NCBI GenBank assembly: GCA_028293025.1
Contig: JAQGLF010000155.1
Coordinates: 1 to 39,642 of the forward strand
Direction of reading: 5' to 3'
DNA: 39,642 nucleotides
Origin: Alphaproteobacteria bacterium
Lineage (GTDB): Bacteria > Pseudomonadota > Alphaproteobacteria > Sphingomonadales > Sphingomonadaceae
The notes beneath the pieces were generated by a model. That model saw nothing but the letters and a program-made list of their open reading frames with translations. It made no database searches and was not told the DNA's origin. This document shows positions 32,610 through 36,263 of this stretch, piece after piece (the first letter of the stretch is position 1; every line of letters begins with the position of its first letter). Both the position numbers and the translations under genes were made by a program.

Positions 32610-32994
32610 AATTACTCCTGTCCGTGGTTGCTATGCCGGCGTCCGTGCGGGCGCCGTGGTGGCGGCGCGCCGGCCGCTGCACGGAGTCTGAAACGGGCGG
32701 CGGTGGGTCTTTCTCCGTCTCCGGCGGCACGTCGAAGGCGCGCAGGGACGGGCTGTGGCATGAGCGGGATGTGCCGACGGGGTGAGACGTTTTGGCCGAA
32801 CTGAGAGCTGTCTCCTGCGCCGCGGCCACGAAGCTGTCGATCCGACCCAGCGGGGTCGTCAGCGTCCGCCTCCACTCCGAGCAGATGCAAGCCGGGTCTG
32901 TCGCGCTCCACAATTACGCGATGGAAAAGCACCTCCACGCGCCCTCCGCAGCCCGTTGACATATATTGCTATACAGCTATATAGCCGCTTAGCA

Positions 32995-33336
32995 ATGAAT
33001 TGGACCTCCTCCACCCAGCTGGATACAGCCTTCGCGGCCCTGAGCGATCCGACCAGGCGGGCCATCCTCGCCCGTCTCGCCCTCGGCGAAGCGACCGTGT
33101 CCGAGCTGAGTAAACCCTTCGCTTTGACCCAGCCGACCGTCTCCAAGCATCTCAAGGTGCTCGAACAGGCCGGGCTGATCGAGGGCGCGCGCGACGCGCA
33201 GCGGCGGCCGCGGCGGCTGAACGCGGCCGCGATGAAGGACATGGCCGAATGGCTGGAGCCCTTCCGGCGGCTCTGGGAGAGCCGCTTCGACAATCTCGAC
33301 CGCCATCTGGCGACGACCGTGAAAAAGGAGAAATGA
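32995..33336 (+). CDS. ArsR-family transcriptional regulator
   Basis: LDTAFAALSDPTRRAILARLALGEATVSELSKPFALTQPTVSKHLKVLEQAGLI. Confidence 0.9.
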   Translation: MNWTSSTQLDTAFAALSDPTRRAILARLALGEATVSELSKPFALTQPTVSKHLKVLEQAGLIEGARDAQRRPRRLNAAAMKDMAEWLEPFRRLWESRFDNLDRHLATTVKKEK

Positions 33337-33337
33337 C

Positions 33338-33811
33338 ATGCCCCCCGCCGCCGACACCCTTGCGCCCACGGGCTTCGAAATCGACCGCGCCACGCACACG
33401 ATCCGGCTGACCCGCGATTTCGCCGCCGATCCCGCGCAGGTCTTCGCCGCCTGGACGCAGCCGGAGCAGGTCGCCTGCTGGTGGGATGCCGCGGGCGAAC
33501 CCCTGGCGCGCTGCGAGATCGACCTGCGGGTCGGCGGCGCCTTCGCCTTCGTCAGCCGCGGCCATCCGGACATGCCCTTCGCCGGAATCTATCGCGAGAT
33601 CGCGCCGCCCGCGTGGATCGTGTTCGACGCGATGGGCGCGGTCGGGCGCGTCCTCCTGGCCGAGGCGGAAGGCGGGACGCACATGATCGTGGAGATCGAA
33701 TGCGCCACCGCCGAGCAGCTCGAGCAGTTCGTGAAGATGGGCGTCCACATCGGCACCGGCCGCACGCTCGACAATCTCGTCGCGCACCTCGACGGCGCGG
33801 GAGCGGCCTGA
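33338..33811 (+). CDS. SRPBCC/AHSA1-family protein
   Basis: IRLTRDFAADPAQVFAAWTQPEQVACWWDAAGEPLARCEIDLRVGGAFAF; operonic with ArsR. Confidence 0.9.
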   Translation: MPPAADTLAPTGFEIDRATHTIRLTRDFAADPAQVFAAWTQPEQVACWWDAAGEPLARCEIDLRVGGAFAFVSRGHPDMPFAGIYREIAPPAWIVFDAMGAVGRVLLAEAEGGTHMIVEIECATAEQLEQFVKMGVHIGTGRTLDNLVAHLDGAGAA

Positions 33812-34712: not shown

Positions 34713-34838
34713 TCAGCGGGCGCAGGTGCAGCGCTCGCCGCACTTGCAGCTGTTGCCGCACGCGCAGGCGGCGGGCTGGTTGGCGCAGCGGCACTCGGGG
34801 GCGCAGCGGCAGGGATTGCATTTGCAGGTCGGGGTCAT
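34713..34838 (-). CDS. Metallothionein-like micro-protein (41 aa, 12 Cys)
   Basis: Translated base by base: MTPTCKCNPCRCAPECRCANQPAACACGNSCKCGERCTCAR*; repeated CxC motifs; absent from the ORF track. Confidence 0.8.
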   Translation of the reverse strand: MTPTCKCNPCRCAPECRCANQPAACACGNSCKCGERCTCAR

Positions 34839-34945
34839 GGGAAATCTCCGTCATTGGGTTGCTGGAGCTTTGTGACTAGACCTCGGTGGCGCGGCGGCGC
34901 TTGAACGCAGCGGCTGAAATGCCGTCAATCGGAGACTGCGTCTGA

Positions 34946-35737
34946 ATGGAGATCGAGGGGCGCGGCAGGATCCTCGTCTGGGAGGGTGCCAGCCTTTGGC
35001 TCCTCGAGGCGGCGGGCGGCGTCGGCCGGGCGGACTTCCATTCCCATCACGCGATCCAAATCACCCTCGCGCTCGAAGGCGATTTCGAGCTGCGCACCGC
35101 CGATGAGCGGCTGCGCGGCCCCGCCGTCGCCGTCGCCGCGGACGCCAGCCATGTCTTTGAGGCAAGCGGGCTGGTGGCCTTCCTCTTCGTCGAGCCGGAA
35201 AGCCGGGAGGGGCGAGCCCTTGCCGCGTCCTTCCGGGGCAAGGCGTTGCGCGCGCTGTCCGGCGAGTCCGTCGCGCAGCATCGCGCCGCGCTTGCCGCCG
35301 CATTCCGGTCGGGCAGCCGGGATGAGGAGTTCGCGCGGCTCGGTGCGGTGATCGTCGCCGCGATGGCCGGATCGGCCGAGGCAAGGGTGGCGGACCCTCG
35401 CATACGGTCGATGATCGATCATGCCGGCGGCAATCTGCAGAACGGCGTCAGCCTGCCCTCGGCGGCGAGCGCGGCCTGCCTGTCGGAGAGCCGGGCGCGT
35501 CACCTGTTCGTCGAGCAGACCGGGTTGCCGTTCAAGACCTACGTCCTGTGGCTCCGCATCGGGCGCGCGGTGGAGCTCTACGCGGCGGGTGCATCGCTCA
35601 CCGAAGCCGCGCATGAAGCGGGCTTTGCCGATTCCGCCCATTTCAGCCGCACCTTCCGCCGCACTTTCGGCCTGCCCGCTGCGGCGCTGCGCGTGAACAG
35701 CCGCTTCGTCCAGGCCGTCCAGCCAGACGCCGCCTGA
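34946..35737 (+). CDS. AraC-family transcriptional regulator
   Basis: LSESRARHLFVEQTGLPFKTYVLWLRIGRAVELYAAGASLTEAAHEAGFADSAHFSRTFRRTFGLPAAALR. Confidence 0.88.
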   Translation: MEIEGRGRILVWEGASLWLLEAAGGVGRADFHSHHAIQITLALEGDFELRTADERLRGPAVAVAADASHVFEASGLVAFLFVEPESREGRALAASFRGKALRALSGESVAQHRAALAAAFRSGSRDEEFARLGAVIVAAMAGSAEARVADPRIRSMIDHAGGNLQNGVSLPSAASAACLSESRARHLFVEQTGLPFKTYVLWLRIGRAVELYAAGASLTEAAHEAGFADSAHFSRTFRRTFGLPAAALRVNSRFVQAVQPDAA

Positions 35738-35816
35738 TTCACCCGATGCGCGCCGCGGGGCGATGGACACGGCCTTCATCGGCCTCCAATATCCATGCCG
35801 AACCGGAGGATTGCTC

Positions 35817-36263
35817 ATGCTCGCCATACGTCGCTTCTTGGCCGCCCTTGCTTTGGCTGTCCCCGCTTTGGCCATCGCGGCGGCGCCAATCGCCATGCAT
35901 CGCGACCCCGGCTGCCCCTGCTGCCTCAAATGGGCGGCGCAGGTACGCGCGCAATTCGGGCGGCAGGTACAGGTCATCGACGATTCCCAACGCGCGCTGT
36001 TGCAGAAGCGCCTGGGCGTGCCCGCCGATCTCGCCTCCTGCCACACAGCGGTCATCGACGGCATGGTCTTCGAAGGTCACGTTCCGATCGCCGACATGAA
36101 GCGGGTGCTGGCGCAGCGCCCGAAAGGCGTTGCCGGCCTCGCGGTCGCCGGCATGCCGACGGGCTCCGAGGGCATGGAGATGCGGGGCCAAAAAGGCCAG
36201 GCCTATGACGTGATCGCCTTCGGCCCGGGTGGGCGCAGAGTGTTCGCGCACCACGCGGCCTGA
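35817..36263 (+). CDS. DUF411 metal-binding protein
   Basis: MHRDPGCPCCLKWAAQVRAQFGRQVQVIDD...GVPADLASCHTAVIDGMVFEGHVPIADMKRVLAQRP. Confidence 0.88.
   Translation: MLAIRRFLAALALAVPALAIAAAPIAMHRDPGCPCCLKWAAQVRAQFGRQVQVIDDSQRALLQKRLGVPADLASCHTAVIDGMVFEGHVPIADMKRVLAQRPKGVAGLAVAGMPTGSEGMEMRGQKGQAYDVIAFGPGGRRVFAHHAA

Follow-up and report, generated by a model that had tools for sequence, protein, structure and literature searches.

Few bacterial metallothioneins have been characterised, mainly cyanobacterial SmtA, those of Pseudomonas and mycobacterial MymT, which is controlled by the copper repressor RicR and for which we know of no AraC-family partner. The SmtA gene is divergent from that of its regulator SmtB, the Pseudomonas metallothioneins are rich in His and their operons are without metal regulators, and a copper role has been reported for MymT, a small Cys-rich protein (PMC7387436). 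The locus studied here, in a stretch of 39,642 nucleotides of Sphingomonadaceae DNA (the window), resembles that of SmtA in that a gene for a small, Cys-rich, presumed metal-thiolate cluster protein is divergent from a regulator gene, but the regulator is a cupin AraC-family protein where that of SmtA is of the ArsR/SmtB type. The protein described here is small and Cys-rich like MymT, and a copper role is proposed for it as well. A search of the openly licensed PMC literature brought to light no bacterial metallothionein under AraC control, nor the conserved module of regulator, predicted operator and metallothionein-like gene described below.

A sequence-only reading of the window had proposed a metallothionein-like protein of 41 amino acids with 12 Cys, and its ORF was found exactly where that reading had placed it, on the minus strand, which had not been given (Table 1); as had also been said, a 60-aa ORF cutoff overlooks it. 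The peptide, MTPTCKCNPCRCAPECRCANQPAACACGNSCKCGERCTCAR, is 29% Cys, with no His and no aromatic residue, and its Cys (spacings 1-2-1-3-1-6-1-3-1-3-1) form two lobes, CxCxxCxCxxxCxC and CxCGxxCxCGxxCxC, on either side of a linker. Short ORFs are common and longer frames overlap this one on both strands, as would suit a chance reading frame in GC-rich DNA, but none of 200 dinucleotide-Markov simulations of the window gave an ATG-initiated ORF of 30-60 aa with at least 10 Cys, and the real window holds one. Purifying selection was seen in 14 close pairs of the small Cys-rich ORFs (pN/pS = 0.39), in which 147 of 149 Cys columns were unchanged and 2 had changed. Together with the ribosome binding site, the operator-like element and the conserved Cys pattern this makes a chance frame scarcely conceivable; conservation in effect refutes it, and it was rejected on the simulations and the selection. 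The 41-residue Cys-rich gene is a real, overlooked gene, whose product is presumably cytoplasmic.

Table 1. Features of the metallothionein-like locus, with positions in the window
Feature	Position	Strand	Basis
Metallothionein-like CDS, 41 aa, 12 Cys, six CxC	34713..34838	-	Sequence; Cys pattern shared by orthologues; family-wide purifying selection
Shine-Dalgarno CGGAG, 7 nt upstream of the metallothionein-like start codon (ATG)	34846..34850	-	Read from the sequence
-10-like TAGTCA, within 1 nt of where relatives have TAnA	34873..34878	-	Sequence; family consensus
Predicted AraC operator CAGCCGCTGCGTTCAAG (conserved, 17 bp), overlapping the metallothionein promoter at its -35 region	34900..34916	-	PWM score 24.8, best in the window
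AraC-family regulator, N-terminal cupin (H32, H34, H35, Q38, H69), C-terminal HTH; divergent from the metallothionein-like gene	34946..35737	+	PF12833; predicted fold
Degenerate second operator copy CAGCCGCTTCGTCCAGG, 3' end of the AraC gene	35698..35714	+	PWM score 9.9, lower than any training site but the second highest in the window
CopG-like DUF411 protein (CPCC, SCHT, GHVP), occasional neighbour	35817..36263	+	PF04214; PDB 6wis, E 2e-23

The window protein has the traits of the broad metallothionein class, being short and rich in Cys in CxC and CxxC spacing with few or no aromatic residues, and its relatives are alike, with almost no aromatic residue and almost no His (most have none at all); Cys number and spacing are kept across the family while the other residues vary freely. 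The sequence-only reading had suggested a profile search against bacterial metallothioneins, and when this was run the family went unrecognised, which is itself informative: no PF02069 match was obtained for the window protein or for 48 relatives at E<=1, and no significant Pfam or NCBIfam match among these 48 diverse members. The weak Pfam matches of the family were mostly to eukaryotic metallothioneins and never to PF02069, and a family profile searched against the PDB matched seven chains, all of them metallothioneins (E 0.2-5, not significant), matches which are suggestive only because Cys composition alone could cause them. Metallothioneins of mammals, Neurospora (MT_nc) and wheat (Ec) were among the weak profile matches, and the family shares with fungal, animal and plant metallothioneins the CxC arrays, the CxCGxxCxC lobes and the lack of aromatics, but the matches lack significance (E 0.004 to 5) and could be explained by low-complexity Cys composition alone. 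The window protein also lacks the His ligands that accompany Cys in PF02069-type proteins, and so it is best read, from its sequence, as metallothionein-like but outside the known bacterial family of SmtA, BmtA and PmtA. The metallothionein-like interpretation first made for this ORF has therefore gained support from the conserved Cys pattern in relatives, on which it had been made to depend, from purifying selection and from weak profile matches that are mostly to metallothioneins. A RiPP precursor or other processed peptide would suit the weak NCBIfam match (E 0.047) that links one family member to a Cys-rich RiPP; this we consider very improbable, as the Cys array of the window peptide begins at residue 5 without a leader and no maturase-type enzyme recurs beside the Cys-rich ORF, and the RiPP reading was rejected.

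When the window peptide was searched against 301 genomes of the same family, two homologues were convincing (59-60% identity, same CxC pattern); both are divergent to an AraC-family gene homologous to the window regulator, and neither had a recognisable DUF411-like ORF next to it. Single-sequence and three-sequence metallothionein searches in the family and order gave only these two convincing relatives, the weaker matches (E 0.0003-0.01) being dropped as they were mostly not short Cys-rich ORFs. Three aligned N-terminal domains of the regulator (about 100 residues), with no metallothionein sequence, were used as a search handle instead, and one genome per bacterial and archaeal species was scanned; 80 loci were kept, a count to which near relatives contribute repeatedly and which includes the two relatives found first (L023 and L030). 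A Cys-rich ORF of 29-69 aa lay beside the regulator in 66 of the 80, directly downstream of it in 46, divergent in 17 and convergent in 3 (L061 and L038 were reassigned by hand, the ORF of L038 lying about 850 bp from the regulator), while the same filter picked out only four other ORFs elsewhere in the 755 kb of these loci. The sequence-only reading had placed the ORF merely near an AraC regulator, which is correct but understates a linkage of this extent.

The loci belong to Alpha-, Beta- and Gammaproteobacteria and Acidobacteria, and among them are Sphingomonadales, Caulobacterales, Hyphomonadaceae, Acetobacterales, Burkholderiales, Rhodanobacteraceae/Lysobacteraceae and Acidobacteria; contigs labelled Marinimicrobia derive from metagenome bins and may be misbinned. 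Many sphingomonads and caulobacters have the N-lobe CxCxxCxCxxxCxC and a CxCxxCxGxxCxCGC sub-pattern is found in Burkholderiales, Rhodanobacteraceae and Acidobacteria, and because the Cys sub-patterns differ by lineage it is context, rather than sequence, that makes common descent of all the small Cys-rich proteins likely. In the tree the window falls within a well-supported sphingomonad clade in which divergent and downstream arrangements both occur. Some large plasmids carry the regulator as well, in Cupriavidus sp. P-10 (pMTS1, L128) beside an operator-like element and a downstream Cys-rich ORF, and in Sinorhizobium fredii (pSF25509b, L127) with two operator-like copies but without a Cys-rich ORF.

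Upstream of 65 of 67 Cys-rich ORFs (window included), some 72-115 bp ahead of the start codon, lies the element YAGCC(G/C)NTNCGTTCAA(G/T). The conservation of its AGC and TTCAA is partly by construction, because the seed pattern fixes these letters, and the positions free of this bias are the Y before and the C after AGC, the middle T and the CG before TTCAA, together with the spacing to the -10 box. This spacing is near-fixed, a TA-rich -10-like box (TAnA) starting in the consensus some 21 nt beyond the final A of TTCAA, and in the window it is one base longer; such a distance appears too great for a plain -35/-10 promoter and would resemble that of class II activator promoters. Where the Cys-rich ORF is downstream, the regulator gene usually ends in the element, whose TAG serves as its stop codon. 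Across the 755 kb 78 copies lay beside the regulator and 9 elsewhere, several of the latter preceding other likely targets, and a reversed control gave 0; exact copies are rare genome-wide, only 17 of 201 genomes of the family having any. The conserved partners of the metallothionein over long evolutionary distances are thus the AraC regulator and this operator-like element, not DUF411.

The degenerate copy at the 3' end of the AraC gene lies within one base of the operator position in downstream-type loci and is most simply explained as a decayed operator, probably from an ancestor with the metallothionein downstream. It was not accepted as an active operator of the DUF411 gene because its score is below that of every training site, which makes action on DUF411 unlikely. 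Elsewhere in the genome to which the window belongs, a perfect copy was also seen about 90 bp upstream of a HemB-like gene (genome G000, contig C129:1349-1365, L107); it was not counted as a target because there is no clear -10 box at the expected spacing and, with about one exact copy per ten genomes, it may be background.

The regulator matches PF12833 (E 1.7e-18) and has the two-HTH C-terminal DNA-binding domain of the AraC/XylS family. Its AF2 model (pLDDT 91.8, pTM 0.87) resembles, by Foldseek, AraC and the ToxT/Rns-type AraC regulators ToxT and Rns, while its N-terminal domain matches cupins such as KdgF and the metal-containing TM1459 and carries the HxH, E/Q/H, H ligand set of metal-binding cupins. 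The candidate ligands H32, H34, H35, Q38 and H69 (HxHH, Q, H) are present in 81 of 81 regulators, an invariance that is unbiased for H69 only because the other four lie in the scan pattern, and their spacing fits a predicted cupin metal site as in TM1459 and KdgF. If this regulator does sense metal through its cupin, it would be a metal sensor of a kind for which we know of no characterised example.

We consider it probable that the window encodes an AraC-regulated metallothionein-like protein that buffers a soft metal, likeliest copper(I), under control of the 17-bp element. The two lobes of the peptide would fold around soft metal ions and so buffer them. The ligand of the divergently encoded regulator would itself be a metal, an ion held in the His/Gln site of the N-terminal domain allowing the protein to bind or activate at the element, which overlaps the -35 region, and the protein would be an activator rather than a repressor, switching on metallothionein synthesis. 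Such a module would probably enable a cell to produce a metal sponge, for copper most likely, as the need arises.

The sequence-only reading had taken the AraC and DUF411 neighbours as a sign of a copper/zinc handling locus. The DUF411 gene is indeed present, its ORF opening at 35763, and its product aligns over most of its length with CopG (PDB 6wis), with the Cys, the CxCC motif, SCHT and GHVP conserved, but it is only an occasional partner, found in the window and beside 2 of the 80 relatives; for this reason it lies outside the conserved core and was rejected as a constant partner. Within 5 kb of the 80 loci the copper genes were CopA-type ATPases (7), CopC (4), CopD (4) and DUF411 (2), some close relatives being among these loci, and because of these genes and the CopG-like DUF411 protein here, which favours copper over zinc, copper seems the likeliest metal. 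Against this, only a minority of the loci have a copper gene nearby, and in an unbiased tally of immediate-neighbour Pfam domains the first places went to alpha/beta hydrolases, MauG di-haem proteins, DUF3703 and YtkA rather than to metal transporters. It is possible, although we think it unlikely, that the same AraC-controlled metallothionein serves zinc or cadmium, as with cyanobacterial SmtA: Cys-only thionein clusters also suit these metals, a His3/Gln cupin site is suitable for Zn(II), Ni(II) or Cu(II), Cd-metallothioneins account for several of the weak PDB matches, and one distant plasmid relative of the regulator has a ZIP transporter, an ArsR/SmtB regulator and a P-type ATPase in its neighbourhood. 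The scarcity of His in the family argues the other way, since SmtA-type zinc metallothioneins contain His, as does the finding that the recognisable metal genes near the loci are of the copper types CopA, CopC, CopD and CopG.

The 14 loci without a Cys-rich ORF (rhizobia, Microvirga and others) bear on the signal. Because 12 of them keep the element, the signal of the regulator need not equal the metal of the peptide, and because in these loci the element often precedes a YtkA-like gene and, after it, a MauG di-haem gene, that signal may be broader than one metal. A different signal, such as oxidative or thiol stress, haem or periplasmic damage, with the peptide as a thiol/redox buffer instead of a metal store, would accord with these YtkA-like and MauG pairs and with a 4-TM protein and alpha/beta hydrolases as recurrent downstream partners; we judge it improbable, as CxC arrays and a near-absence of aromatics are metallothionein traits, and Cys number and spacing are kept as other residues change. 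Taking copper buffering as the preferred reading, we would go further only tentatively, and with slightly less than even confidence, to an undescribed copper-response module of Proteobacteria and Acidobacteria, in which a cupin-AraC sensor loaded directly with metal activates, via the single, strongly conserved 17-bp site, either new copper thioneins or YtkA-like and MauG proteins. The Cys-rich proteins go unrecognised by Pfam and NCBIfam and are so short that ORF cutoffs can miss them; the regulator offers a search handle for the set, and the sharp operator-like element makes the regulon predictable.

The element or a close variant was seen before YtkA-like and MauG genes at L035:3147-4845, L042, L047, L066, L068, L073, L087 and others, where the regulator has no metallothionein. 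The YtkA-like secreted protein has the signature GGMPxHGHGLPT...GWW, and its Trp-rich end and MauG partner are reminiscent of the MbnP/MbnH copper proteins. Adjoining the regulator-metallothionein pair is a predicted multi-pass membrane protein of about 130 residues with no Pfam match (22 loci in all, for example L068:4338-4790, L024:7019-7792 and L045:4523-4930), sometimes fused to DUF3703 and, in L024 and L025, with an operator-like copy of its own. Alpha/beta hydrolases lie immediately 3' of the metallothionein in many alphaproteobacterial loci (L024, L025, L044, L050 and L069). Elsewhere in the window, at 32782-33811, an ArsR-type regulator and an AHSA1-domain protein, which commonly occur in this order as a pair, precede an SDR oxidoreductase; these are apparently unrelated to the module.
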